Below the pieces are notes generated by a model, which ran no database searches, was not told the origin of the DNA, and saw nothing but the letters and a program-made list of their open reading frames with translations. From Phytoactinopolyspora mesophila (lineage in GTDB: Bacteria; Actinomycetota; Actinomycetes; Jiangellales; Jiangellaceae), in assembly GCF_010122465.1 (NCBI RefSeq), contig NZ_WLZY01000007.1, forward strand, positions 100,934 to 164,933: DNA of 64,000 bases. The letters run 5' to 3'. A program made the position numbers and the translations under genes. Positions 4,067-58,355 of the stretch are shown here, piece after piece (positions within the stretch are counted from its first letter, which is position 1; the number at the start of each line of letters is the position of its first letter).

Positions 4067-4162
4067 AACGTGTCGCAGCTCTCCTGCATTCCCGCATTTG
4101 CCACCTCGCCGATCCGTCGAGGGGAAACGCCGATCGCTCCCCGTCACCCGGACTGCTAGCCC

Positions 4163-4262
4163 TCACCTAAATGATCATGTTTGGTGGGTTTTCCCGTGCG
4201 TCACCATGGCTACAGACCTGTCGACGCACGAGAAAACCCACCAAACATGATCATTTAGGTGA
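4163..4262. repeat. Long inverted repeat, family A copy 1 (40-bp arms)
   Basis: Arms 4163-4202 and 4223-4262 pair over 40 bp with one mismatch and enclose a 20-nt loop (accatggctacagacctgtc). The arms contain ATGATCATGTTTGG. Copies 2 and 3 are at 8368 and 14505. The pncC stop codon and its last codons lie in the right arm. There is no uridine tract. Loop and TGATCATG core are conserved, while stem bases differ from copy 3 by compensated pairs. Confidence 0.92.
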
Positions 4263-4742
4263 GGCACGAAGCGCGGCGGAAAGTAGCATCTCCAGCGCCA
4301 CGGACACAGTGCGCTCCCGCACGGCCGCGCGATCACCACGCAAGCACTCGCCACCGGTGAACGACCGCACGTCCGTGCCATCAGGCGCCGCCGCGGCGAC
4401 GTGCACGGTGCCAGGGGGATGCCCGTCCTGCTCCGTGGGACCAGCTACACCGGTGGTGGCCAGCGAAATCCCCGCCCCCAGCAGTTCCCGCACCCCTTGA
4501 GCCATGGCGGCGGCGGTCTCCGCCGCCACCGGCCCGTGCTCGGCCAGGACGGCATGATCGACACCGGCGATGCGCTCTTTGGCTTCGTTCGCGTAAGCCA
4601 CGACCCCGCCGACGACCACCACTGATGCTCCGGGTACGGCGGTCAGCCGGGCGCACACGAGACCGCCGGTCAGCGACTCAGCCGTGGCCACCGTCAGCCC
4701 CCGCTCGCGCAGCGCCTCGACCACGCCTTCCGCGCTTGCCAT
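4251..4742 (-). CDS. pncC: CinA C-terminal domain protein, nicotinamide-nucleotide amidase
   Basis: This 163-residue, PncC-only form of CinA deamidates nicotinamide mononucleotide to nicotinic acid mononucleotide in NAD recycling. Family segments are TVATAESLTGGLVCARLT, VVGGVVAYANEAKERIAGV, HGPVAAETAAAMA, ATTGVAGPTEQDGHPPGTV. The N-terminal CinA (MoaB-like) domain is absent, as is usual in actinobacteria. It follows pgsA by 46 nt in the same direction, and a hairpin occupies that space. Its final codons (SPK-stop) are encoded inside the long repeat at 4163-4262. An ATG two codons upstream (4748) is possible. Confidence 0.9.
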   Translation of the reverse strand: MASAEGVVEALRERGLTVATAESLTGGLVCARLTAVPGASVVVVGGVVAYANEAKERIAGVDHAVLAEHGPVAAETAAAMAQGVRELLGAGISLATTGVAGPTEQDGHPPGTVHVAAAAPDGTDVRSFTGGECLRGDRAAVRERTVSVALEMLLSAALRASPK

Positions 4743-4791
4743 GATCATGAACCTTTCCCCTGACTGTCACCCGGGCAGGTGTTCATGATCA
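4742..4791. repeat. Inverted repeat, family E copy 1, between pgsA and pncC
   Basis: Arms TGATCATGAAC (4742-4752) and GTTCATGATCA (4781-4791) are perfect 11-bp complements with a 28-nt loop. One end provides the pgsA TGA stop and the other overlaps the pncC ATG. The GGGGAAAGG ribosome binding site of pncC lies in the loop. The same arm sequence recurs at 15522-15578. Confidence 0.85.
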
Positions 4792-5373
4792 CGTGCGGTT
4801 CTTGCCGCGGAGCCGGATGGCCTGCAAGACGTAATCGGCCCCCGTGATCAGCGTCACAGCTACGGCCAAGGCCATCGCGGCCATTTGCAGCGGCTCGAAC
4901 GCCGCGGCCAGCGGCAGCACGTACAACCCAAGAGCGACGGCCTGTAGAGCGGTCTTCACCTTGCCGCCCCGCCCCGCCGGCATCACGCCATAGCGGATCA
5001 CGACGAAGCGCATGGCGGTAATCCCCCACTCCCGCAGGAGCACCAACCCCGTGACCCACCAGGGCAGCTCGCCAAGAATGGACAAGCCGACGAAGGCCAT
5101 GCCGGTAAGCGCCTTGTCCGCGATCGGATCAGCGATCTTCCCGAAATCGGTGATGAGCCCACGCCGGCGGGCAAGCTCGCCGTCGGCTCGGTCCGTGGCC
5201 ATCGCCAGCACGAACGTCACGAAGGCGGCGATCCGGGAGGCGTCGTCGGCGCCGCCCGCGCGGAGCAACAGCCAGCCGAAGAGCGGAACCAGCAGGAACC
5301 GAACAACCGTGACCGCGTTCGCCAGATTCCACACGCTGGGTGGCTGCGGCTTAGGACGGTGAAGTTCGGGCAC
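4789..5373 (-). CDS. pgsA: CDP-diacylglycerol-glycerol-3-phosphate 3-phosphatidyltransferase
   Basis: This is a 194-residue integral membrane enzyme of the CDP-alcohol phosphatidyltransferase family, making phosphatidylglycerol phosphate from CDP-diacylglycerol. The full signature D-x2-D-G-x2-A-R-x8-G-x3-D-x3-D is present at residues 61-86 (DRADGELARR to ADPIAD). About five membrane segments are visible. It starts with GTG (5373), 6 nt after a TAGGCT hexamer, so it is probably leaderless. Its TGA stop is the first codon of the hairpin that leads into pncC. Its place beside pncC and clgR is conserved in actinobacteria. Confidence 0.92.
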   Translation of the reverse strand: MPELHRPKPQPPSVWNLANAVTVVRFLLVPLFGWLLLRAGGADDASRIAAFVTFVLAMATDRADGELARRRGLITDFGKIADPIADKALTGMAFVGLSILGELPWWVTGLVLLREWGITAMRFVVIRYGVMPAGRGGKVKTALQAVALGLYVLPLAAAFEPLQMAAMALAVAVTLITGADYVLQAIRLRGKNRT

Positions 5374-5379
5374 GCCGCC

Positions 5380-5385
5380 AGCCTA
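5380..5385 (-). promoter_or_regulatory. -10 hexamer of pgsA (leaderless arrangement)
   Basis: TAGGCT on the minus strand, 6 nt before the pgsA GTG, fits TANNNT and would start transcription at or next to the start codon. Confidence 0.55.
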
Positions 5386-5440
5386 GTGCCTCGTCGTCCC
5401 GGTTCCGGCGATCGGTGTTCGCGCCACGTTCGCGGCAGAA

Positions 5441-5446
5441 TAGTGT
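5441..5446 (+). promoter_or_regulatory. -10 hexamer of the ABC exporter operon
   Basis: TAGTGT lies 7 nt before the GTG at 5454; this is the basis for choosing that start over upstream in-frame codons. Confidence 0.55.
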
Positions 5447-5453
5447 GATCTGG

Positions 5454-6284
5454 GTGAACACCGATTCGGCTCCAGGCACACAGCACGCCAAACGCCCGGA
5501 CGCATCTGCCGGGACAGCCGGCCCACCGGCACTGGCGCTACGCGGTCTGGTCAAGCGGTTCGACCAGACCGTCGCCGTGGCCGGCTTGGATCTCGATGTT
5601 CCCACCGGCTCGTTCTTCGGCCTGGTAGGTCCGAACGGTGCAGGCAAGACCACGACCCTGTCGATGGCCACCGGGTTGATGCGCCCGGACGCGGGCACCG
5701 CATTCGTTCTGGGGCACGACGTCTGGTCCGATCCAGTCGCAGCCAAGCGGCTGCTCGGCGTGCTGCCCGACGGCCTCGCCCTGTTCGACCGGCTCACCGG
5801 GGCTCAGCTGCTGGAGTACATCGGCAGGCTGCACAGTCTCGACCGGGAGCTGGCCCAGCAACGCGCCGCCGAACTGCTCGACGTCCTCGACCTGGCCGAC
5901 GCGGGTGACACGCTCGTCGTCGACTACAGCGCCGGTATGACCAAGAAGATCGGGCTCGCCTGTGCGCTCATCCACGGGCCGCGCATCCTGACTCTGGACG
6001 AGCCGTTCGAGTCGGTGGACCCAGTCTCGGCCGCCACCATCCGCAGTATCCTGCGCTCGTTCGCCGCGAACGGCGGCACCGTCGTCGTGTCGAGTCACGT
6101 CATGGCGCTCGTCGAGCAACTGTGCGATCACGTCGCCATCATCGCCGGCGGTCAGGTTCTTTCCTCCGGCGCCCTGGACGACGTGCGCGGCACGGGGTCG
6201 CTCGAGGACAGATTCGTCAGCCTCGTCGGCGGACACCGAGAGCTCGGAGAAGGTCTGGCATGGCTGCGCCAATCGCCGGGCTGA
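5454..6284 (+). CDS. ABC transporter ATP-binding protein
   Basis: This 276-residue ATPase subunit belongs to the ABC-2/exporter-type families. Walker A is GPNGAGKTT, the signature is a variant (YSAGMTKKIGLA), Walker B is ILTLDEPFESVD, and the switch histidine is in VVVSSHVM. It ends 25 bp inside the next gene, which encodes a large membrane protein, so the two form one exporter. The GTG at 5454 is chosen because of the TAGTGT hexamer 7 nt before it. The transported compound cannot be read from the sequence. Confidence 0.88.
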   Translation: MNTDSAPGTQHAKRPDASAGTAGPPALALRGLVKRFDQTVAVAGLDLDVPTGSFFGLVGPNGAGKTTTLSMATGLMRPDAGTAFVLGHDVWSDPVAAKRLLGVLPDGLALFDRLTGAQLLEYIGRLHSLDRELAQQRAAELLDVLDLADAGDTLVVDYSAGMTKKIGLACALIHGPRILTLDEPFESVDPVSAATIRSILRSFAANGGTVVVSSHVMALVEQLCDHVAIIAGGQVLSSGALDDVRGTGSLEDRFVSLVGGHRELGEGLAWLRQSPG

Positions 6285-7942
6285 CAGCTGGCCGTCCCGC
6301 GCACAGCAGCGGCCCAGCCGGTACGGCCGCCGTCGTAGCACTATTCGTCGGACTCAAACTGCGCCTGATCGGCAACAGCCTCAAAGGCTCCAATGCCCGG
6401 CTCATCGCCGGCCTCATCGGCAGCGCGGCCGGCATCGGCATAACGGTCACCGGTGGTTACCTCGTCGCGCAGCTACGCAACGCCGCGGCAGCCGATGCTT
6501 ATTTGGTACTCGTCTGTGGCGGCAGCATCGTCCTGATCGGCTGGGTGCTTCTGCCGGTGCTCATCTTCGGCATCGACGAATCGATCGACCCACTGCGCTT
6601 CACTCTGCTACCGCTGTCCCGGAAGAAGCTGCTGGCCGGCATGCTCGCGGCCGGCTTCATCGGCATCCCGGCCGCGGCTACCTTGCTCGTCTCTACCGCG
6701 ACCGTCGTCACCTGGTCCCGGGGCGTGCTTCCCGTGCTCTACGCGGCTGCAGGCGCACTCCTGGCCACCGTCTTCTGCGTGGTCGTCAGCCGGGCGGTCA
6801 CCACCGCGCTGTCGGGAGTGTTCCGGTCGCGGCGGGTACGCGATCTCGTGTCGATGGCAGGCATGCTTCTGGTCGGCTCTGTCGTGCTGCTCCAGTTCGG
6901 GCTCCCCTCCATGGCACAGCTGGCCACCCGCGAGGTCGTCGAGCAGATTGCCGGTGTGCTCGCGTGGACCCCGCTGGGAGCCGCCTGGGCAGCGCCGCAC
7001 GACGCAGTCGAGGGCTCTGCCGGCCTTGGCTTCATCCGGCTGCTGATCATGGCGGCCGCGGTCGTCATCCTGCTGGTTGCGTGGAACGAAGCGATGCGTC
7101 GCTCGCTCGAAAGCGGTGGCGCCGCGGCCGGTTCAGGTACCCGGAGGCCGCATGGAAAGGAACCGGGCAGCAACCGGCTGACGCCGGCGTGGGCACGCTG
7201 GTTCTTGCCACCGACGGTCACCGGCGCCGTAGCGGAGCGCATCCTGCGTCTGTGGTGGCGAGACCCTCGCCAGCGAGTGAGCTTGCTGATCATCCCGGTG
7301 ATCCTGGCCGGCGTCGTGGCCGGGCCGTCGATCGCCGGTTTCCGGGACGAGGTTCTGGTGATGGCCGGGCCCGGTGTCGGCACGCTCATCGGACTGATGA
7401 TGCTCAATCACACCGCCTACGACGGCAGTGCCCTGTGGACCCATCTCGCCGTATCACTGCCCGGACAGGTGGACCGCGCGGGCCGGGCACTCGGCACGGC
7501 GGTGTGGGCGCTGCCGGTCGTCGGGCTTGCCGCAGGCGCCACCTGCATGGTGGTTCAGCGCCCTGACCTGTTCCCCGCGGCTTTCGGCGCGTCGGTGGCA
7601 ACGGTTCTCGTCGGTCTTGCCTTTGCCTCCGTGACCAGCGTCGTCATCGCGTTTCCGGCCCCGCCGGCCAGCGCGAATCCGTTCATCACGCCAGGTGGCG
7701 GGAACGTCGTCGTGGTCATGCAGCAATTCGTCGGCGGACTGACCGTGGGACTGTTGTCCCTGCCGGTCTACTTGCTGTTGGGCTTCGCACTGTGGTGGCG
7801 CGCAGAGTTCGGTTGGGCGCTGTTGATCGCCGGCCCGGTGTACGGACTGTTGTTGCTCCGGCTCGGCTGCCGAATCGGCGGCAAGTACCTCGACGAGCAC
7901 GGCCCAGAACTGCTGCGCCGGATCACACCGACACGAACCTGA
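6260..7942 (+). CDS. Large ABC exporter membrane protein
   Basis: This 560-residue polytopic membrane protein overlaps the preceding ATPase gene by 25 bp and is its likely membrane partner. About 12 hydrophobic segments are visible in two blocks, separated by a hydrophilic stretch near the middle (RRPHGKEPGSNRLTPAWARWF). This resembles actinobacterial ABC-2-like transporter proteins in which two permease halves are fused. The start ATG at 6260 is preferred over the longer frame, which would overlap the ATPase by more than 150 bp. Substrate is unknown; export of a lipid, peptide or drug is possible. Confidence 0.75.
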   Translation: MAAPIAGLTAGRPAHSSGPAGTAAVVALFVGLKLRLIGNSLKGSNARLIAGLIGSAAGIGITVTGGYLVAQLRNAAAADAYLVLVCGGSIVLIGWVLLPVLIFGIDESIDPLRFTLLPLSRKKLLAGMLAAGFIGIPAAATLLVSTATVVTWSRGVLPVLYAAAGALLATVFCVVVSRAVTTALSGVFRSRRVRDLVSMAGMLLVGSVVLLQFGLPSMAQLATREVVEQIAGVLAWTPLGAAWAAPHDAVEGSAGLGFIRLLIMAAAVVILLVAWNEAMRRSLESGGAAAGSGTRRPHGKEPGSNRLTPAWARWFLPPTVTGAVAERILRLWWRDPRQRVSLLIIPVILAGVVAGPSIAGFRDEVLVMAGPGVGTLIGLMMLNHTAYDGSALWTHLAVSLPGQVDRAGRALGTAVWALPVVGLAAGATCMVVQRPDLFPAAFGASVATVLVGLAFASVTSVVIAFPAPPASANPFITPGGGNVVVVMQQFVGGLTVGLLSLPVYLLLGFALWWRAEFGWALLIAGPVYGLLLLRLGCRIGGKYLDEHGPELLRRITPTRT

Positions 7943-8127
7943 GGCCGAACAGGTACGGACCACCCCGCCACGCAAGTCGGCCTTCAGCCTGCTTCGCGGA
8001 ACGGGTGGCAACGGCGTGCGCACGTTTGACCAGGATGAATCACCGCGAAACGGACCCCGATGATCGGCCAGAAACTATTGGCCACTCACCCGATGCCGTT
8101 CGTAGTGCGCGCCCGGCGCGGCGACCC

Positions 8128-8133
8128 TAGTGT
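8128..8133 (+). promoter_or_regulatory. -10 hexamer of the small zinc-ribbon gene
   Basis: TAGTGT ends 7 nt before the GTG at 8141, fitting a leaderless transcript. Confidence 0.5.
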
Positions 8134-8140
8134 TGGCCCC

Positions 8141-8341
8141 GTGAACGCCCAACCCGCTCAATCGCTTCCGCCGGTGTCCTGCTCGAGCTGTGGCCGGATC
8201 ATGAACGACGACTCCCCGTCCGAGGCCCTGGCGTGGGCCGCAGAGCTTCGGGCCGGGCGCCGGATTTGGCTCTGCCCCAGCTGCGCACGCGCTCATGTGC
8301 GCGACATCGAGAGCAAGCTGCCCGCCGAGCACTGGATGTAG
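8141..8341 (+). CDS. Small zinc-ribbon-like protein
   Basis: This 66-residue hypothetical protein has two Cys-x-x-Cys pairs (CSSCGRI and CPSCARAH) about 30 residues apart, so it probably binds one zinc ion. The C-terminal part (RDIESKLPAEHWM) is charged. The GTG at 8141 is chosen because of the TAGTGT hexamer 7 nt before it; the in-frame ATG at 8060 would add 27 non-conserved-looking residues. It converges on rimO, with the long repeat at 8368-8461 in between. Function is unknown; related short proteins occur widely in actinobacteria as far as I recall. Confidence 0.65.
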   Translation: MNAQPAQSLPPVSCSSCGRIMNDDSPSEALAWAAELRAGRRIWLCPSCARAHVRDIESKLPAEHWM

Positions 8342-8367
8342 CCCACACCACCCAGCCCACCGCGCTC

Positions 8368-8461
8368 CCTAGATGATCATGTTTGGTGGGTTTTCTCGGG
8401 CCCCAATAGGGCTCCAGGCATGGTGACGCACGGGATAACCTACCGAACATGATCATCTAGG
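8368..8461. repeat. Long inverted repeat, family A copy 2 (degenerate, inverted)
   Basis: Left arm CCTAGATGATCATGTTTGG and right arm ending CCGAACATGATCATCTAGG pair with several mismatches further in. The conserved loop (accatgcctggagccctatt) is found on the minus strand, so this copy is inverted relative to copies 1 and 3. It lies between the convergent zinc-ribbon gene and rimO. Confidence 0.85.
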
Positions 8462-8492
8462 CGGAGTGAGAAGTACAGCGCGCCCGCCCGCT

Positions 8493-9929
8493 TCATCCCG
8501 TGACGGGGGCGGCGGTCAAATCGGCGCCGCTGCTGCCCGTGACGACGGCCCGCACGATGTCACCCACCTGCGCGCTGATACCTGTCAGAGTTGTCGAGCC
8601 ATCGACCTCTGGCCCCTGGTGCGCGGCTCGGCCCTCCACGATCTCCCCGTCGACCGACTCGACAAGGACGTCGACGGTGGTGCCGACCCGATCCTCGGCG
8701 CGCTGGGCCACAAGATCGTCGATCAGGGCGCTGACCCGTTCCACCCGGGCCGCGACCTCGTCCTCGTCGACCTTTCCGTCCAGCCCAGCCGCTTCCGTTC
8801 CGTCCTCGTCCGAGTAGCCGAACACCCCGACTACATCGAGCCGAGCCCGCGAGAGGAAGTCCTCCAGCTCGGCGACATCGTCCTCGGTCTCACCGGGGAA
8901 ACCGACGATGACGTTCGAGCGGATTCCCGCTTCGGGAACTATCTGACGGATCGACTCGATCAGCTCGAGGAATGGCTCGGTGGATCCGAAACGTCGCATT
9001 CGGCGTAGCACCGAGGAGCTGGCGTGCTGGAAAGACAGATCGAAGTACGGCGCCACACCGACCGTCGTCGCCATGGCCTCGATGAGCGTCGGACGCATCT
9101 CGGCCGGTTGCAAGTAGGAAACCCGGACCAGTTCGATCCCGTCGACGGCAGCCAGCTCCGGCAGTAACGTCTCCAGCAACCGGATGTCGCCGAGGTCCTT
9201 GCCGTACGACGTCGAGTTCTCGCTGACGAGGAACAGTTCCTTGGCCCCCTGAGCAGCCAGCCAGCGAGCCTCGTCCAGCAGGTCGGTCGGGCGTCGTGAC
9301 AAGAACGACCCGCGGAACATCGGGATGGCGCAGAAAGAGCAGACCCGGTCACAGCCACTGGCCAGTTTCAGCGGCGCCATCGGCCCGTCGCCCAGGCGCC
9401 GCCGCACCGCCCGTGGACCGGATGCGGGCGCGACGTCGTCCGGAAGGTCCGGGGCCGCCACCGCCGTGCCATGCCCCGGCACCGAGCCTGCCGCGTCTTG
9501 CCGCTCAACCGGGGCGACCGGCAGCAACTTGCGGCGGTCCCGGGGAGCATGGGGCACGTGCTGGTTGCCGTCGAGGATGCCGCGCAGGCGCTCCCCGATC
9601 TGTGTGTAGTCGTCGAATCCGAGAACGGCGTCGGCCTCGGGCAGCTCATCGGCGAGTTCCTTGCCGTAGCGCTCGGCCATGCAGCCAACGGCGACGACAG
9701 CCTTGGTAGCTGCTTCGCCCTTCAGATCGGCGGCCGCCAACAGAGAATCGACCGAGTCCTTCTTCGCCTGCTCCACGAAGCCGCAGGTGTTGACCAGCAC
9801 GGTTTCGGCTTCGGCGGGATCGTCGACGAGGGTGAAACCACCGGCGTCGAGGCGACCAGCCAGCTCCTCGGAGTCGACCTCGTTACGAGTGCAGCCCAAA
9901 GTGACGATTGCGACAGAGTGTTCGCTCAT
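8493..9929 (-). CDS. rimO: Ribosomal protein S12 methylthiotransferase
   Basis: This is a 478-residue radical-SAM enzyme that methylthiolates an aspartate of ribosomal protein S12. The N-terminal domain carries the three cluster cysteines (C13 in [12 protein letters not shown]49 in [14 protein letters not shown]83 in [10 protein letters not shown]). The radical-SAM cluster is C193-x3-C197-x2-C200 (GCDRVCSFC). A TRAM domain ends the protein. The [18 protein letters not shown] wording is RimO, not MiaB. A linker of about 50 residues before the SAM motif (near residues 125-180) is longer than usual. A TAGCCT hexamer lies 9 nt before the ATG. Confidence 0.93.
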
Positions 9930-9967
9930 TTGGCACCAAGGCTACCCGAGGGCTATTCACAGGGAGC

Positions 9968-10033
9968 ATGGCACGCTGAATACACGTTGGAAAGCGCAAT
10001 CCGGCCTGGAACAACGTGTTCTCAACGTGCCAT
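9968..10033. repeat. Inverted repeat, family H copy 1
   Basis: A 66-bp element with imperfect 22-bp arms (ATGGCACGCTGAATACACG... and ...CAACGTGCCAT) and a 22-nt loop. It is nearly identical, in the same orientation, to 11078-11143, and the two flank the AbiEi-like gene. This copy is 11 bp after that gene's stop and upstream of rimO. Confidence 0.9.
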
Positions 10034-10044
10034 CCCGCCCGGCT

Positions 10045-11001
10045 TCACGGCATTGAGATGCAAGGGACCCCGAACATCCGCGCCGCGATCGTGGACTGCC
10101 GCACGATGCGGTGGAGCACGGCACCGGGCTCGTTCACCGCTTCCGCCGGTGTCCATCGCACGACGACGAACCCCGCCTCCTCGATGCGCATCTGGCGCTT
10201 CTTCTCATCGAGCAACACTCGCTCCGGCGGGCCCCACAGCGGGTCGCGATACTTGAGATGTCCGTCCACTTCGCCAACGAGGCGGTGCCGTCGCCACAGA
10301 AAATCCGACCGCACGCCCCCGTGTCCCTCACCGACGACCCACGCGTTGCATTCCGGAAGCGGAAACTCGGCGATCACGAAGACGGCGTACGAGAAAGACT
10401 CGCCGGGCGACTCACGCGTGCGCGATGCGTGCTCTGCCACCAGCCTCATCTGACTGCTTTTGCGCCATCCCTTCATGCCCTCGACCATCTCGTCGAGCTC
10501 CCCCGGCCGGACAACGTCGTTGCGAAGCGCCGCGTCAGCGACGATGAGACCAGCGGGAAAGCCGTGGTTGCGGGTGATGTCCAATGAAGTACGGGCCGGC
10601 ACCGTCATCGGAACGCCCCGAAGGACGAACACGTCCCCCTTCGCTACGGACGCGGTCCGCACTCGCATTCCGCGGTAGCCGCGCCGGCCGTGGAAGCGTT
10701 GTGGCAAGGAGATCTCGACGCCCTCAGGCTGGCCCTTGGGCACCGGAAGCCCGAGGAGCAAGGCCGCGGAGTAGCCGCTAGCCCACCCCCGCCTGCCCAG
10801 CGCCAGTATCGCCGCCCATACCTCGATCGCATGGCGGAGCGCTGACGACGACGCACTCGCCTCCCATGCCGCGCGCTCGCAGTACACACCGCGTCGAACC
10901 CTAACGATCCGCCCCGTGCGGCACGCGTGCTCAATGGCGCTTCTCGACATGCCGCGCGAATACAGGTCCGCGACCGTATGGACCCCTGGCACCCCCGTCA
11001 T
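10045..11001 (-). CDS. AbiEi-like / DUF559-type protein
   Basis: This 318-residue protein has an N-terminal winged-helix region resembling AbiEi antitoxin domains (VADLYSRGMSRSAIEHACRTGRIVRVRRGVY), a middle region (AALLLGLPVP, SLPQRFHGRRGYRGMRVR), and a C-terminal Vsr/DUF559-like nuclease fold (FLWRRHRLVGEVDGHLKYRD, ending FVVVRWTPAEAV). The EVDG...K arrangement could be a degenerate PD-(D/E)xK site. Such solitary proteins are common in actinobacteria and their role is unsettled. The gene is bracketed by two copies of the 66-bp family H repeat. The ATG at 11001 is favoured; upstream residues run into the repeat. Confidence 0.7.
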   Translation of the reverse strand: MTGVPGVHTVADLYSRGMSRSAIEHACRTGRIVRVRRGVYCERAAWEASASSSALRHAIEVWAAILALGRRGWASGYSAALLLGLPVPKGQPEGVEISLPQRFHGRRGYRGMRVRTASVAKGDVFVLRGVPMTVPARTSLDITRNHGFPAGLIVADAALRNDVVRPGELDEMVEGMKGWRKSSQMRLVAEHASRTRESPGESFSYAVFVIAEFPLPECNAWVVGEGHGGVRSDFLWRRHRLVGEVDGHLKYRDPLWGPPERVLLDEKKRQMRIEEAGFVVVRWTPAEAVNEPGAVLHRIVRQSTIAARMFGVPCISMP

Positions 11002-11077
11002 GCGAGCCGATCTTTCCCTGGAGGCTGTCGGCTGGCAAACCGCTGCCCACAGCTTTTCCACAAGCCAGCCGGCCGAC

Positions 11078-11143
11078 ATGGCACGCTGAATACACGTTGG
11101 AAAGCGCAATCCGGCCTAAAGCAACGTGTACTCGGCGTGCCAT
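11078..11143. repeat. Inverted repeat, family H copy 2
   Basis: Second copy of the 66-bp element, same orientation as 9968-10033; the first 40 bases are identical. It lies between the AbiEi-like gene start and the end of the next minus-strand gene. Differences between copies are concentrated in the right arm. Confidence 0.9.
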
Positions 11144-11206
11144 CCCCCAAGGCTGAGTACCCGGCGACGCACCCGTACCTCGCATCGGTGGGCCGCTCGT
11201 CGCCTG

Positions 11207-11815
11207 TCACTCAGCCCGCTGGCCACCGTCCACGGCATCGAGCAGATCGAAATAGCCATCCACGGCGTTCCACATATGGTGTTCCGGGTACGTGCCCCTG
11301 CCTTTGTGCTGGGAACGCCATTCCCTGCCCCAGTAGTGCTCTCGCACGTGACGAAGGTGAGCCCGGCTTGCCGCCAGTTCTTCGTGAAGCTGTTCGGCTT
11401 CGGCTTCCGGCGATGGCGCGGGGAGCCGATAGGCTTCGGCATCGCCGCCGGCGAGGGCGTCCAACGCCTCGGACTCGGCACCGTCGATCGACCATATACG
11501 CAATGGACGTTTGATGTAGTGGTTCCACACCGGCCACACCGAGGGCCGCCAGAACCATGCGACCGACGTCTTGTGCAGTTCGAGCATGTGCTCTAGCCAG
11601 CCATAGGACTGCGGCCTCGAGCACCAGGTCAGCTCTCCCGCGGGGGCGTCGAGCACGAACGCCATCCGGAGGAAATCCACATCCGACGACGTGTCCAGGA
11701 GTTCTCCGAAGACGTACGCACCGATCAACACCGGCTCGTCGTCCGGAAAGCGGTTGACGTTGTCACAATGCTCAGCGATGGTCCGTAGGCGACGAACCGC
11801 GGTCTTCCGATGCAC
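11207..11815 (-). CDS. Nucleotidyltransferase-like protein of unknown function
   Basis: This 202-residue protein is not confidently assigned. The segment VLIGAYVFGELLDTSSDVDFLRMAFVLD resembles the G-[GS]-x9-D-x-D core of nucleotidyltransferases, though the second glycine-serine is replaced. A tryptophan-rich middle (WFWRPSVWPVWNHYIKRPLRIW) and a glutamate/alanine-rich helix (PEAEAEQLHEELAASRAHL) follow, and the C terminus ends VDGYFDLLDAVDG. Actinobacterial proteins of this kind carry a DUF name (I think DUF7711). A GTG at 11815 with AGGATGG before it is the most likely start. It lies just upstream of the AbiEi-like gene in the same direction. Confidence 0.6.
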   Translation of the reverse strand: MHRKTAVRRLRTIAEHCDNVNRFPDDEPVLIGAYVFGELLDTSSDVDFLRMAFVLDAPAGELTWCSRPQSYGWLEHMLELHKTSVAWFWRPSVWPVWNHYIKRPLRIWSIDGAESEALDALAGGDAEAYRLPAPSPEAEAEQLHEELAASRAHLRHVREHYWGREWRSQHKGRGTYPEHHMWNAVDGYFDLLDAVDGGQRAE

Positions 11816-11871
11816 GGCACCATCCTGCACCAACCGCTCCAGCGAGTATTCCGCCGGGCGCGTGAGCCCAA

Positions 11872-11885
11872 GGGGCCGAGGCCCC
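11872..11885 (-). terminator. Short GC hairpin after ftsK
   Basis: GGGGCC-GA-GGCCCC (best folded as a 5-bp stem with a 4-nt loop) begins 20 nt after the ftsK stop. It could end the ftsK transcript, but no uridine tract follows. Confidence 0.35.
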
Positions 11886-11904
11886 CAACGCGGGCGGAAC
11901 GTAT

Positions 11905-14430
11905 TTACTCGCCCCGGAGCGTGCCCAGCACCTCTTCGAGGTCGTCCGGCTTGATCAGCACGTCACGGGCCTTCGATCCTTCCGAGGGCCCGACGATGCC
12001 GCGGCTCTCCATCAGGTCCATCAGCCGGCCCGCCTTGGCAAATCCCACCCGCAGCTTGCGCTGCAACATCGAGGTCGAGCCGAATTGCGTGTTGATGACC
12101 AGTTCCGCCGCCTGGCACAGCAGATCGAGATCGTCACCGATGTCTTCGTCGATCTCCCGCTTGGCAGTGGCCGGTGCCGTCACGTCTTCGCGGTAGGTCG
12201 GCTGCAACTGCTCCTTGCAGTGGTTGACGACTGCCGCGACTTCGCTCTCGGTGACCCACGAGCCCTGGACCCGGATCGGCTTGCTCGCGCCCATCGGAAG
12301 GAACAGCCCATCGCCCTGTCCGACCAGCTTTTCCGCACCCGGCTGGTCGAGGATGACGCGCGAATCGGCGAGCGACGACGTCGCAAACGCCAGCCGCGAC
12401 GGCACGTTAGCCTTGATCAACCCGGTCACCACGTCCACCGACGGGCGCTGGGTGGCCAGCACTAGATGGATTCCGGCCGCACGCGCCAGCTGGGTGATCC
12501 GCACCACGGAGTCTTCGACGTCACGCGGCGCCACCATCATCAAATCGGCCAACTCGTCAACGATCACCAGCAGGTACGGGTACGGCGTGAGCACCCGTTC
12601 GCTGCCCTCGGGCACCTTGACCTTGCCCGCCCGAACGGCCTTGTTGAAGTCGTCGACGTGCCGGAACCCGAACTCGGCGAGGTCGTCGTAGCGCATGTCC
12701 ATCTCACGGACGACCCACTGCAGCGCCTCTGCCGCCTTCTTCGGGTTGGTGATGATCTGCGTGATCAGATGTGGAACGCCCTCATAAGCGGAGAGCTCCA
12801 CCCGCTTGGGGTCTACCATGATCAACCGGACCTCGTCCGGGGTGGCGCGCATCAGCACCGACGTGATCATGGAGTTGATGAAGCTCGACTTACCGGACCC
12901 GGTCGCTCCGGCCACCAGCAGGTGAGGCATCTTCGCGAGGTTCGCCACGACGAACCCACCCTCGACGTCCTTGCCCAGGCCAGCCACCATCGGATGGTGA
13001 TCTTTACGGGCGACCGCCGAGCGCAGGACATCGCCCAGGCTGACGATCTCTTTGTCGCTGTTCGGGATCTCGATGCCGATCGCCGACTTCCCCGGGATCG
13101 GCGACAGAATACGGACGTCAGCGCTGGCCACGGCGTAGGAGATGTTCTTCGACAGCGCGGTGACCTTCTCGACCTTGACCGCCGACCCGAGCTCCACTTC
13201 GTAGCGGGTGACGGTGGGGCCGCGCGTGTAGCCGGTGACCTCGGCATCGATGTTGAACTGCTCGAAGACCCCCATGAGTGAATCGACCACCGCGTCCGAG
13301 GCGGGTGTGCGCGCCTTGTGTGTACTGCCTTGCCGCAATACATCGCCGGAGGGCAGCGTGTAGGTGATGTCCCCGGACAGAGCGAGCTGTTCGACGCGCT
13401 GCGGAACCGGAGAGTGCGGGGGTGGTTCCTCGATCGCCGTTTCCGTCGTGGCTTCGGTGGTGGTCTCTTCGTCGGTCGTGGGCGGCGGCGGAACCGGCTG
13501 TGTCTCCGCGTCGTTGGCCTTCTTCAGCCCTTTCCTGGTCTTCGGCTTCTCACGGATCACCGGGGAGTCGTACGGCTCGTCGTCGGTGGGCTCTAGACCG
13601 GCTTCCTTACGACGACGCGGGCTGATCGGGCGGGCCTCGTCTTCGCCTTCGAGCCTGCGGAAGCCGAGTACGACCGAGACCCGGTCCCACACCGCCATGG
13701 CGTATCCGGGTACCTCGTACAGAGGAATTCCGGTGACGACGAGCACGCCGAACAAGGTCAGCAGAATGAGCAACGGAACGGCGACCCACACCGTCAGCAA
13801 GTCGGCCAGAACCGTGGAGGCGATATACCCGACCGCGCCACCAGATCTCTGCAGTGCCTCGGCGCCGTCCACCGGCCTGGGCATTCCGCCGGCGATATGC
13901 GCGAGCCCAAGTGCCCCCAAGGACAGGAACGTCCAGCCGACCACCTGCTGGCTGGTGGGGCGGTTCGCATCGGGTCGACGGAGCAGCCGCCAGGCTGCCA
14001 TGACCAACAGCACGGGGACGACGTGGCCGGCCGTACCCACTGCCCCGGTGACCACGTCGTGAATGATCCCGACGATCATGCCGTCAACGGACCACCACAT
14101 GACGGCGGCGATCACCACGGCCACACCGATCAGCGCCAGCCCGGCGCCGTCGCGGCGTTGTTCGGTCGGGATCTCGCGGGCGGTCGAGCCGACCTTCCTC
14201 GCGGATCCACCGATCAGGTGTGCGAGCCCCATCCAGATCGCGCCGATCGCCCGGCCGATGGCGCGGAACAAGCGGATTCCCGCGCCTGGGCGGGCCGGCT
14301 TGCGGGGCGGGCGGCGGGCAGGCTGACGCCGGGTGGAGCCGCGTGCTGCCGCGGGGCGCTTTTTCGGGGCGCCCGACGTGCTACGCGACCGCGACGAGGC
14401 AGCAGGAGCGTTGGTCGTGCGGGTCACCAT
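11905..14430 (-). CDS. ftsK: DNA translocase FtsK/SpoIIIE
   Basis: This 841-residue ATPase moves chromosomal DNA through the closing septum. A basic N-terminal region is followed by about four membrane helices (residues 100-240), a proline/threonine/glutamate-rich linker (about 270-345), and the motor domain with Walker [10 protein letters not shown] (about 508-516) and Walker [14 protein letters not shown]. The C-terminal winged-helix gamma domain ([40 protein letters not shown]) reads the orienting sequences. The linker is short for the family. A TAGCCT hexamer 7 nt before the ATG suggests leaderless transcription from the intergenic region that also holds family A repeat copy 3. Confidence 0.95.
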
Positions 14431-14437
14431 GAAGATC

Positions 14438-14443
14438 AGGCTA
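14438..14443 (-). promoter_or_regulatory. -10 hexamer of ftsK
   Basis: TAGCCT on the minus strand, 7 nt before the ftsK ATG. Confidence 0.5.
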
Positions 14444-14504
14444 CACGCGACACACTCGCATCTTCAGTCACACACGCCCCGGCGTGCCCCTTTTTCCGCC
14501 GTCT

Positions 14505-14596
14505 CCGAATGATCATGTTTGGTAGGTCTTCTCGCGCGTCACCATGCCTACAGCCCTGTTGACGCGCGAGAAGACCTACCAAACATGATCATTCGG
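14505..14596. repeat. Long inverted repeat, family A copy 3 (36-bp perfect arms)
   Basis: Arms 14505-14540 and 14561-14596 are perfect 36-bp complements around the 20-nt loop accatgcctacagccctgtt. It sits between the divergent ftsK and hydrolase promoters, not at a gene end, so it is unlikely to be only a terminator. Compared with copy 1, three stem base pairs are changed on both arms. Confidence 0.95.
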
Positions 14597-14661: not shown

Positions 14662-15528
14662 ATGGCGAGTATCGAGATCAACGGAAGCCACCTGGCCTAC
14701 GACGAGGCCGGGGCCGGCTCTACGGTCATCTTCATTCATGCCGGCGTCGCCGACCGCCGGATGTGGGACCACCAGTTCACGGCGCTGTCGGCGACGCATC
14801 ACGTCATCCGCTACGACTGGCGCGGCTACGGTGAATCCGGCGAGCCTCACGGAGAGGTCGCCCACCACGAGGACGTGCTGGCGCAGATGGACGCGCTCGG
14901 TATCGAGCAGGCCGCCCTGGTGGGCTCCTCCTACGGCGGGGCGTACGCCGTAGACACCGCGCTGGCCGCCCCCGACAGGATCACTGCCCTGACGCTGATC
15001 TGCGCGGGTTTGTCCGGCCACGTCTGGCCACAGGGAATGCTCGAACTGGCTCGCCAGCGCGTGCACAACGCGGTGCCCGCCGACCGGCTAGAACGCTACC
15101 AAGCCGGTACGGCAGCACATGTGGATCCGGCGGACGTCCAGGCGATGGCCGAAGCTCAGGTCGACTTCATGGTGGTGGGACCCGACCGAGACGTCCGCGA
15201 CTTCCCGGCACGAACCCGCGAGAAGGCGATCGAGATGTGCCGTGGCGTCTTTCTGCGGACCTGGAGTCGCAGTGTTCCCCTCGCCCAGCGTTGGATTGAC
15301 CCTCCGGCCATCACGCGACTGGCCGAGATCAGCGCACCCACGCTCGTGGTCAACGGCCTCGCCGACGTCAGCTACATCCAGGCAGTCTCGGACCTACTCG
15401 CCGACGGAATCACCGGCTCCACGCGCGTCGACCTGCCCGATACCGGCCATTTGCCGCCGCTCGAACGCCCGGCCGAGGTGACCCGCCTGCTCATCGAGCA
15501 CCTTGAGCGACCACTTCGCCTCCCATGA
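14662..15528 (+). CDS. Alpha/beta-hydrolase fold protein
   Basis: This 288-residue serine hydrolase has a nucleophile elbow G-S-S-Y-G-G (ALVGSSYGGAYAVD), an oxyanion segment FIHAGVADRRMWD, an acid in NGLADVSY and the catalytic histidine in DTGHLPPLERP. The arrangement is that of the 3-oxoadipate-enol-lactonase/esterase-like group, but the substrate is not deducible. The ATG is 6 nt after a TAAAGT hexamer. Its TGA stop lies inside the hairpin at 15522-15578, which it shares with the convergent rnj gene. Confidence 0.88.
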   Translation: MASIEINGSHLAYDEAGAGSTVIFIHAGVADRRMWDHQFTALSATHHVIRYDWRGYGESGEPHGEVAHHEDVLAQMDALGIEQAALVGSSYGGAYAVDTALAAPDRITALTLICAGLSGHVWPQGMLELARQRVHNAVPADRLERYQAGTAAHVDPADVQAMAEAQVDFMVVGPDRDVRDFPARTREKAIEMCRGVFLRTWSRSVPLAQRWIDPPAITRLAEISAPTLVVNGLADVSYIQAVSDLLADGITGSTRVDLPDTGHLPPLERPAEVTRLLIEHLERPLRLP

Positions 15529-15578
15529 TCATGAACGATCGTTGACGAATATGGTCAAGAAGTGTTCATGATCATGGG
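15522..15578. terminator. Inverted repeat, family E copy 2, between convergent genes
   Basis: CCCATGATCATGAAC (15522-15536) and GTTCATGATCATGGG (15564-15578) are perfect 15-bp complements with a 27-nt loop. It contains the hydrolase TGA stop and abuts the rnj stop (15579-15581), so it is probably a bidirectional terminator or transcript end protector. The arm sequence is shared with 4742-4791. Confidence 0.75.
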
Positions 15579-28678: not shown

Positions 28679-28724
28679 TGGTTGAGGGATAGGTGTAGCT
28701 GGGGCGACACCTATCCCTCAACCA
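28679..28724. terminator. Inverted repeat, family G copy 1, between convergent genes
   Basis: TGGTTGAGGGATAGGTGT and ACACCTATCCCTCAACCA are perfect 18-bp complements with a 10-nt loop. The right arm contains the TGA stop of the minus-strand gene at 28718. Nearly the same element occurs at 49903-49950. Confidence 0.75.
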
Positions 28725-29314
28725 TTCTCGCCGCTGCCAGCCCTGGCGAGATACGCCATCCCACGCGGTGAAAGGCGGTAGCCCACGGACAAGCTCTCCG
28801 TCAGCCCGAGATTCTTCAGCTTGCGTACGTCTAGCTTGAAGTCCGCCCGCTCGCGGTTCATCATCTCCGCCAGGTCACCCGCGCGTCGTTCCGGATGCTG
28901 GGCGATCAGCCGCATGGTCGGGCGAGTCCACGCCCCATGTTTGGACGCTCGATCCAGCCGGTCGAGCCGGCGATCGATCTCGGCGACATCTGATTCGTCG
29001 AGTTCGGCGTCGGCAGCGAGCTCGGCCCGGGGATCTGGTCGCTCGGCCAGCCGGAACCGGATCCGGTACACCGGCTGGCCGGCTTCGCCCCTGAGATCGG
29101 CGACGAGGGCCGCGGCATCCGGGTAACCCGCGGCGACGGCGTCGTCGTCACTGATCGAGGTGGTGTCGACGACATCAACGGCGACGACGTCGAGCATCCC
29201 AGCCGCGGACCGGTATGACCGCCCCGCCAACACCTGCGCCCGCTTCCAGCGGCGGAACGTCACGGTGACAGATCCGTCGGCTATTCCGGCCCAGAACCGT
29301 TTCTCGAACAGCAT
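28718..29314 (-). CDS. ASCH-like domain plus winged-helix protein, function unknown
   Basis: This 198-residue protein begins MLFEKRFWAGIADGSVTVTFRRWKR, which looks like an ASCH/PUA-type fold (RNA-related), with AGRSYRSAAGMLDVVAVDVVD completing the barrel. After a linker, residues about 120-195 (TRPTMRLIAQHPERRAGDLAEMM, then LDVRKLKNLGLTESLSVGYRLSPRG) look like a winged helix. The ATG at 29314 lies 6 nt after TACGCT. The stop codon is inside the hairpin arm. It could be an RNA- or DNA-binding regulator; I do not assign a function. Confidence 0.65.
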   Translation of the reverse strand: MLFEKRFWAGIADGSVTVTFRRWKRAQVLAGRSYRSAAGMLDVVAVDVVDTTSISDDDAVAAGYPDAAALVADLRGEAGQPVYRIRFRLAERPDPRAELAADAELDESDVAEIDRRLDRLDRASKHGAWTRPTMRLIAQHPERRAGDLAEMMNRERADFKLDVRKLKNLGLTESLSVGYRLSPRGMAYLARAGSGENG

Positions 29315-29901: not shown

Positions 29902-31257
<1,356 letters not shown>

Positions 31258-37799: not shown

Positions 37800-38006
37800 G
37801 GGTCTCCTCCTGTGGATCACGGGAAGCCGTGTCCGCGGCCGGCGGCGTCCGCGTCACTTCGCCGGTCTTCGATGGAGGCGCCCGGCCACACGTGTGCCCG
37901 AGAGCCACAACCGAGGACCGGCCCTACGTGCGACGGCACGTCCGTGCCTGAACCGGCGACCCTGAAGTTGGGACTGCGGTATTCAGTTGTGTTCAGAAAC
38001 AGCAAA

Positions 38007-49649: not shown

Positions 49650-49968
49650 GAAGAAGCTCCTGCGAATGACAGACGAATGAAGGACGATTCGCTGGAGCGG
49701 GGACGCCGGAAGGTGCCGGAGCACACGACGGCTCAGCCGTACGGCGTCGCTGACCTTCCGGCCGGCGACACTAGATCAAGAACGCACAAATACCGGCCAC
49801 CCTAAGGATGGCCGGCGCGGCTCGGGCGCGCCCCGCTCAGAGAGCGTGGGGCGGCGGGGTGATCGGAAAGCACCGGTGCATATGACGATGATACGCATGC
49901 GGATGGTTGAGGGATAAGTGCAGCCCTGGCAGCACCTATCCCTCAACCATCGGCGCGACGGAGAAGTG
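49650..49968. other. Gene-free region between proS and the EamA gene
   Basis: 319 bp without a supported gene. It holds a small hairpin CCGGCCA/TGGCCGG (49793-49815), the family G inverted repeat (49903-49950) after proS, and an AT-richer stretch (49883-49900). No clear promoter of the EamA gene was found beyond its ribosome binding site. Confidence 0.6.
49903..49950. terminator. Inverted repeat, family G copy 2, after proS
   Basis: ATGGTTGAGGGATAAGTGC and GCACCTATCCCTCAACCAT pair over 19 bp with one mismatch; the loop is 10 nt. It begins 19 nt after the proS stop. The arms match copy 1 at 28679-28724 except for a few bases. Confidence 0.75.
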
Positions 49969-55282: not shown

Positions 55283-55609
55283 ACCCTCATCTTCCCCTAC
55301 ATCGTCTCCGTCAGCGAAACCGTTCCGTTACCTGCCGGCCCGCCGTTGCGTGAACGCACCCAAGGGCCACCCGCACGGCACGGGCGACCGAGGCGGTGCG
55401 GAGAATCTCCAGCCGGGTTCGGACGGGCATCGGCGAGCGAGGCACGAGCGAGTCCGCCGGCGCGGCACGGCGACCGAGGCGGTGCGGAGAATCTCCATCC
55501 GGGTTCGGACGGGCATCGGCGAGCGAGGCACGAGCGAGTCCGCGGGCGGGGATGGAGATTCTCCGCACCGCCGTCCGCCCCCAATCGGGCCTCGCACGCC
55601 TGAGCCGGC
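55283..55609. other. Gene-free region between rseP and ispG, holding repeats
   Basis: 327 bp without a supported gene. Most of it is the tandem/inverted repeat at 55384-55573. Short frames crossing it on both strands give the same arginine-rich peptide twice only because the DNA is repeated, and the 86-bp unit is not a multiple of three. Confidence 0.7.
55384..55573. repeat. 86-bp tandem repeat with an inverted partial copy
   Basis: GCGACCGAGGCGGTGCGGAG... starts at 55384 and again at 55470, two units of 86 bp with few differences (for example AGCC/ATCC before GGGTTCGGACGGG). At 55549-55573 the reverse complement of the unit's start (GATGGAGATTCTCCGCACCG) follows, so either unit can pair with it to form a stem of about 23 bp. 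Confidence 0.9.
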
Positions 55610-58188: not shown

Positions 58189-58266
58189 GTGCCCATTCTC
58201 CACCGCTGCTTCTCCCGCCCGTCGCCGCCGTCACCGCTGCGCGCGCCCGACGCGCGGCACCACCCC

Positions 58267-58355
58267 GGTGATCATCAGTACGTTCTGGTCGCCCTGAGGT
58301 GATCAACAGTGGGTTGTGGCTGCCATGCTACGACCACAACCCACTGACGATCACC
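58267..58355. repeat. 89-bp multi-stem repeat, family F copy 2
   Basis: Reverse-oriented copy of 31169-31257, also 89 bp. Three TGATC-type ends are present: GGTGATCATCAGTACGTT at the left, GGTGATCAACAGTGGG in the middle (58298) and CCACTGACGATCACC at the right. The middle and right ends pair over 22 bp with one mismatch. The MFS gene's TGA stop lies in the right arm. Confidence 0.88.

Follow-up and report, generated by a model that had tools for sequence, protein, structure and literature searches.

A 64,000-nucleotide stretch of the Phytoactinopolyspora mesophila genome (contig NZ_WLZY01000007.1, positions 100,934 to 164,933; the window) carries three copies of a long hairpin, here termed family A. 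What is this element, and how do its two arms stay matched when their sequence differs from copy to copy? A preliminary description of the window had reported the three hairpins, and all three are where it placed them; the observation is confirmed and goes beyond chance. On balance, they are probably non-autonomous palindromic DNA elements similar to repetitive extragenic palindromic (REP) sequences or miniature inverted-repeat transposable elements (MITEs). They would belong to a superfamily in Actinomycetes that carries an ATGATCA tag, is inserted at gene ends and is kept uniform by conversion or re-insertion.

Copy 1 (4167-4258, + strand; core 4171-4254, with pairing out to about 4161-4264) lies in the clgR-cinA gap, and its ATGATCAT contains the TGA stop codon (4251-4253, - strand) of the cinA-like gene. 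Copy 2 (8369-8460, - strand; core 8373-8456, pairing over about 8368-8461) is internally inverted and degenerate. Its site is convergent, between the end of a small + strand open reading frame at 8342 and the rimO 3' end at 8493. Copy 3 (14505-14596, + strand; core 14509-14592) has divergent neighbors, ftsK and an alpha/beta-hydrolase-type gene. RNA fold energies of copies 1, 2 and 3 are -79.6, -52.0 and -83.1 kcal/mol, with z scores of -12.9, -4.8 and -14.5 relative to shuffled sequence. The stem of copy 3, first described as a perfect 36 bp, is indeed long, but it comprises 37 contiguous base pairs. The compensated differences named for copies 1 and 3 hold up, and the base of the stem adds two further ones (CTAA/TTAG vs. 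CCGA/TCGG).

The hairpin is far from confined to the window. In the 6.5-Mb P. mesophila genome (G000; other G numbers denote comparison genomes and L numbers loci), ATGATCATGTTTGG matches 125 times with at most one mismatch, and the reversed-pattern control not at all. There are 43 exact symmetric copies. The unit is an 84-nt palindrome, ATGATCATG...CATGATCAT, or 92 nt counting the paired CTAR/YTAG flanks, and its ends, ATGATCAYG...CRTGATCAT, are the same in relatives. At least 26 further copies are one-ended, with the tag, an arm and an inner hairpin followed by an unlike end, ..GAAGTCCTGGTAACGC. In all, the genome has about 60-80 nearly identical members of the family. The base just outside the tag pairs (A-T or G-C) in 36 of 38 copies, compared with 20 expected when the right flanks are shuffled. 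Within the genome, both partners are changed in 37 cells vs. 18 in shuffles, and none of 500 shuffles reaches 37. Neither outcome named beforehand as a refutation is seen: copies far exceed three, and compensated changes are in excess. This excess of compensated changes lends good support to the earlier proposal that the folded form is kept, either by selection or by arm-to-arm conversion. At two loci (L032:1982-2262 and L033:2029-2253), two one-ended copies stand in inverted orientation with about 110-130 nt between them, giving elements of 225-281 nt that resemble REP pairs with a spacer.

A covariance model finds elements in 10 of 13 Jiangellaceae genomes, P. mesophila included. By end-to-end pattern there are 78 in G001, 57 in G004, 24 in G005, 78 in G020 and 27-30 in G014, and few or none in G003 (2-3), G017 and G018. 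Some elements are found 27-200 nt away from the end of a contig (C2, C3, C5, C13 and C23 of G004; C8, C56 and C70 of G020). Hairpins may therefore break short-read assemblies, and the copies may be undercounted. Across relatives the length is nearly always exactly 84 nt while the interior varies. Positions 11-18 form a species-specific 8-nt block that is mirrored in the opposite arm. It is TTGGTGGG in P. mesophila, GAAGTGGG in G001, AAACCATG in G004 and TTGGTACG in G005, with others in Jiangella-like genomes. The block is identical on both arms in 32 of 41 copies in P. mesophila and in 39 of 46 in G004. Mosaic copies with two unlike arms also exist, combining GAAG-type and TTTGG-type arms in G001 and similar in G004. 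A set of 37 elements drawn from 12 genomes has 92.7% of cells paired (78.8% when shuffled), 149 cells changed on both sides (50.8 when shuffled) and a covariation of 0.393 (0.144 when shuffled; 0 of 500 shuffles). The signal is lost once the partners are slid by 1-3 columns.

Where do the copies lie? When genes are predicted from codon usage with a simple caller, all 69 copies in P. mesophila fall outside them. The symmetric copies occupy 19 convergent, 18 co-directional and 5 divergent gaps, whereas element-free gaps number 10, 52 and 23, respectively. This is an enrichment in convergent gaps with an odds ratio of 6.2 (p 7e-5). The preliminary description had placed one copy in a divergent promoter region. 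This is true of copy 3, yet such copies are a minority (5 of 42) and most tagged ends abut a gene 3' end. In 115 symmetric elements from several genomes, the 165 ends facing a gene 3' end have a median distance of 13 nt from the stop codon; 124 of them are no farther away than 30 nt, and 45 have the stop codon inside the tag or directly against it. Ends facing a gene start (n = 65) have a median distance of 104 nt, with 9 within 30 nt. One-ended copies have the tag end toward a gene 3' end in 22 of 27 cases (p 0.0015; the 22 were counted by hand from a table). Numerous scattered copies between genes, for the most part at 3' ends, and a stem conserved through compensated changes are what is looked for in a REP-like element, and the earlier suggestion that family A is REP-like holds up well in this broad sense.

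Comparison of orthologous sites reveals both gains and shared positions. The clgR-cinA gap is 281 nt in P. mesophila, where it holds copy 1, and 160-197 nt in six relatives that have no element there, so copy 1 looks like a gain. At the rimO 3' end (the site of copy 2), no element was seen in six relatives. At the site of copy 3, G004 has an element with different arms, and G003, G002 and G010 are empty. The site before sufS has a symmetric element in P. mesophila, G004 and G005, a one-ended one in G001 and G002, and none in G003. Presence/absence polymorphism of the kind sought in a MITE is seen for copy 1 and for a site A that is empty in G003. At least 11 of 46 G004 elements are at places where P. 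mesophila also has one. The chance expectation is about 1, which is our estimate from about 85 elements over about 3,000 candidate gene-end gaps. At several shared sites the flanks align right up to the element, and register is kept at L218/L158, L201/L034 and L199/L031, with an identical distance from the stop codon at L218/L158. The elements at shared sites nevertheless carry the arms of their own genome. Nor do orthologous elements keep a common inner sequence. The inner 48 nt have a similarity of 0.757 at shared sites vs. 0.767 in random pairs, and that idea was rejected. Shared sites with own-species arms make it seem that copies are homogenized within genomes. There are two possibilities, rewriting of the copies where they stand or precise re-insertion by active masters at favored gene ends.

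What would combine this copy number and fixed length with 3'-end placement, compensated arms and different dialects at orthologous sites, and leave copy 1 absent from six relatives? In the explanation that we favor, the element consists of two opposed ends, each made of ATGATCAY-GT, a lineage block of about 8 nt and an inner arm, joined in the 84-nt palindrome. New copies would be gained between genes, nearly always right after a stop codon and with the tag toward the gene 3' end. They would be mobilized in trans, presumably by an enzyme other than Y1/RAYT. Once placed, they would be inherited vertically over long times, and their sequence would be overwritten by other copies of the same genome to produce a species dialect. 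Arm-to-arm copying would make the two arms match. Copy-to-copy conversion, a step that we infer, or re-insertion would make all copies of a genome alike. A bolder version, which we offer tentatively, is that this is a previously undescribed homogenizing or copying system at gene 3' ends. A non-RAYT superfamily across Actinomycetes would be overwritten in place, arm by arm, with each new dialect sweeping the genome.

Several things weigh against this explanation. No transposase was found, a target duplication is not proven, and excision or insertion events were not seen directly. The genomes are drafts, in which hairpins can break assemblies. Shared sites could also be independent insertions at hot spots, and strict intergenic 3' placement is also what would be expected of terminators.

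What if the copies are never homogenized in place? In this scenario the active master of each lineage repeatedly hits the same gene ends, perhaps at pre-existing hairpin loops. This is the favored explanation minus its conversion step, and the weight we give it overlaps with the weight given to that explanation. We consider it somewhat unlikely. It has in its favor that family A and a shorter relative, family D, are found in the same orthologous gaps of different species. In addition, complementarity extends beyond the element into the flanks, as a run of at least 8 in 11 of 118 cases vs. 0.8 expected. Above-chance complementarity in flanks that are not shared is as expected from template switching or from insertion into hairpins. 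What does not fit is that the register relative to stop codon or flank is kept at the three pairs of loci named above. Another misfit is an orthologous site with a one-arm difference (L126/L127), where G002 has TTTGG/TTTGG arms and G001 has GAAG/TTTGG. A hot-spot consensus was not found.

Could the hairpins instead be bidirectional terminators or 3'-end RNA stabilizers, under selection and spread because every added copy gives transcription a clean end? They are very stable, they lie a median of 13 nt behind stop codons and they are enriched in convergent gaps. Moreover, some orthologous gaps without it contain a different palindrome or hairpin (family D in G003 and G005; hairpins in G001, G002 and G003). 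However, no U-tract follows the stem, which at its base has an invariant tag rich in A/T and not in G/C. Copies exist in divergent gaps, and the sibling G003 has almost none. An RNA stem should also favor G.U over A.C. For co-directional copies, G.U:A.C on the transcribed strand is 14:11 in P. mesophila and 9:10 in G004, the two best-sampled species, and a bias appears solely in a mixed set (18:7, p 0.04). There is no clear G.U excess, so selection at the RNA level is not demonstrated, and the stable RNA hairpins envisaged in the preliminary description receive no clear support. Rfam holds no described RNA family that matches the element. Matched arms fit a DNA origin better, either as two ends of one element or through replication copying one arm. 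We regard the terminator explanation as unlikely.

Binding sites for a protein, for example one that organizes the chromosome and whose shifting specificity changes the arms in each lineage, would explain the dyad symmetry, invariant tag, fixed length per family and species block, but this is quite improbable given that copy number differs strongly among sibling species, that a specificity shift alone would not swap the inner 48 nt along with both arms in nearly every copy, and that no candidate protein was found.

If family A is a mobile DNA element, what moves it? The force and the enzyme that keep REP stems matched and copies uniform are usually credited to RAYT transposases, and such a link had been suggested here. 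It was rejected. PF01797 (Y1/RAYT) has no match in the Jiangellaceae genomes tested, although positive controls worked, and in G235, from another family and the sole distant carrier with Y1 genes, neither of the two genes has an adjacent tagged palindrome. A cargo transposon between inverted one-ended copies, or an autonomous parent with the same ends, was not indicated either. In the four such pairs inspected in P. mesophila, no transposase gene was seen between the copies; the enclosed genes encode a GAP-type membrane protein plus a TetR regulator, and inositol monophosphatase. One example is L031:3056-4667, where one-ended copies surround the genes for the GAP-family membrane protein and the TetR regulator; the neighboring genes are spoIIM-like and DUF58-like. 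A phage or plasmid origin was rejected, with no match among 72,556 plasmid records, 50,697 phage records and IMG/VR. In genomes that yielded no Y1 transposase, family A offers a large and clean natural series (the same sites, different dialects, mosaic arms, rich and poor siblings) in which conversion vs. transposition becomes testable, and it may lead to a new mobilizing or recombining enzyme.

How does family A compare with known systems? Enterobacterial repeat units have been described (PMC2759123), and REP reviews were found, but no earlier description of the ATGATCA tag in the open-access literature. REPs lie between convergent or unidirectional open reading frames, and their termini supply stop codons (PMC3733652). 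REP/REPIN sequences with a RAYT (the GTAG type) resemble family A in being short palindromes with tens to hundreds of copies, a location between convergent or co-directional genes, stop-supplying termini, species-specific stems and two inverted units per element (PMC3733652, PMC3116915, PMC3686654). Among related strains, RAYT genes at syntenic positions are flanked by REPs of different classes (PMC3686654), which parallels the family A dialects. In contrast, a GTAG REP has an unpaired GTAG at one end, whereas in family A both ends of a continuous 84-nt palindrome carry ATGATCAY within the base of the stem. GTAG REP units are 20-40 nt with a GTAG/CGTC tag at one end, whereas family A and D units are 84 and about 51 nt; nor was a Y1 (HUH) transposase found alongside the elements in the Jiangellaceae genomes tested. 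The CGTC REP super-family, like family A, consists of tagged palindromes without a dedicated transposase (PMC3733652). It differs in having stems of 8-9 bp and loops of 4-5 nt, and in its reported distribution over 5 phyla, mostly in alpha-Proteobacteria (PMC3733652). The differing tag, length and symmetry and the lack of a RAYT are why family A is called REP-like here and not a REP.

MITEs such as ERIC and Correia elements are palindromic, intergenic, about 80-160 nt long and have fixed ends. Family A is alike in its palindromic form, intergenic location and fixed ends, and its CTA..TAG flanks resemble those of MITEs with a TA target. The flanks are CTAR/YTAG in most P. mesophila copies, CCGA/TCGG in G005 and CCAA/TTGG elsewhere, and the empty G003 site has CTAG. 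However, they are complementary rather than direct repeats (e.g., CCAA..TTGG), so a simple TA target duplication is not shown, and a cognate insertion sequence was not found. Integron attC sites are palindromic, oriented, at gene 3' ends and lineage-specific. In contrast to them, family A copies are single and dispersed beside housekeeping genes instead of in cassette arrays, and no core-site motif was seen.

The tag is not restricted to family A. Family D is a shorter palindrome, TGATCATGAAC...GTTCATGATCA, of about 51 nt with its outer bases. It has 46 copies in P. mesophila, 107 in G001, 93 in G003, 133 in G005 and none in G004, and occupies some family A orthologous gaps in G003 and G005. 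Family D also covaries within genomes, pair 13/37 being paired in 48 of 57 vs. 21.6 when shuffled. Two relatives are in the window. One (ATGATCATGAAC...GTTCATGATCAC; 4741-4792, DNA fold z -3.0) spans the pgsA-cinA gap and overlaps the ends of the two genes. The other (15522-15578, DNA fold z -6.8) lies between a convergent hydrolase gene, whose stop is inside the tag, and ribonuclease J. Outside the Jiangellaceae, in other actinobacterial families, tagged palindromes of fixed length are found in G029 and G133 (84 nt) and in G235, G065 and G034 (58-59 nt), several of them also behind genes; single hits in G117 and G145 look like chance. These distant palindromes may share descent with family A or just the tag.

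Other repeats in the window include an inverted-repeat family at 31169-31257 and 58264-58319 (GGTGATCATCAGTACGTT.../...), which also has TGATCA near its ends. Both copies of a 47-nt palindrome family at 28679-28725 and 49903-49949 (TGGTTGAGGGATAGGTG...CACCTATCCCTCAACCA) follow a gene at a distance of 15-20 nt. An AbiEi-like gene (10045-11109) has a 78-nt direct repeat, 88% alike, on its two sides (9967-10044 and 11077-11154), as a mobile insertion might. An 83-nt unit is present as two tandem copies, 96% alike, at 55383-55551. Finally, the sole Rfam match in the window is an Actino-pnp RNA at 37861-37922 (- strand; 60.2 bits).

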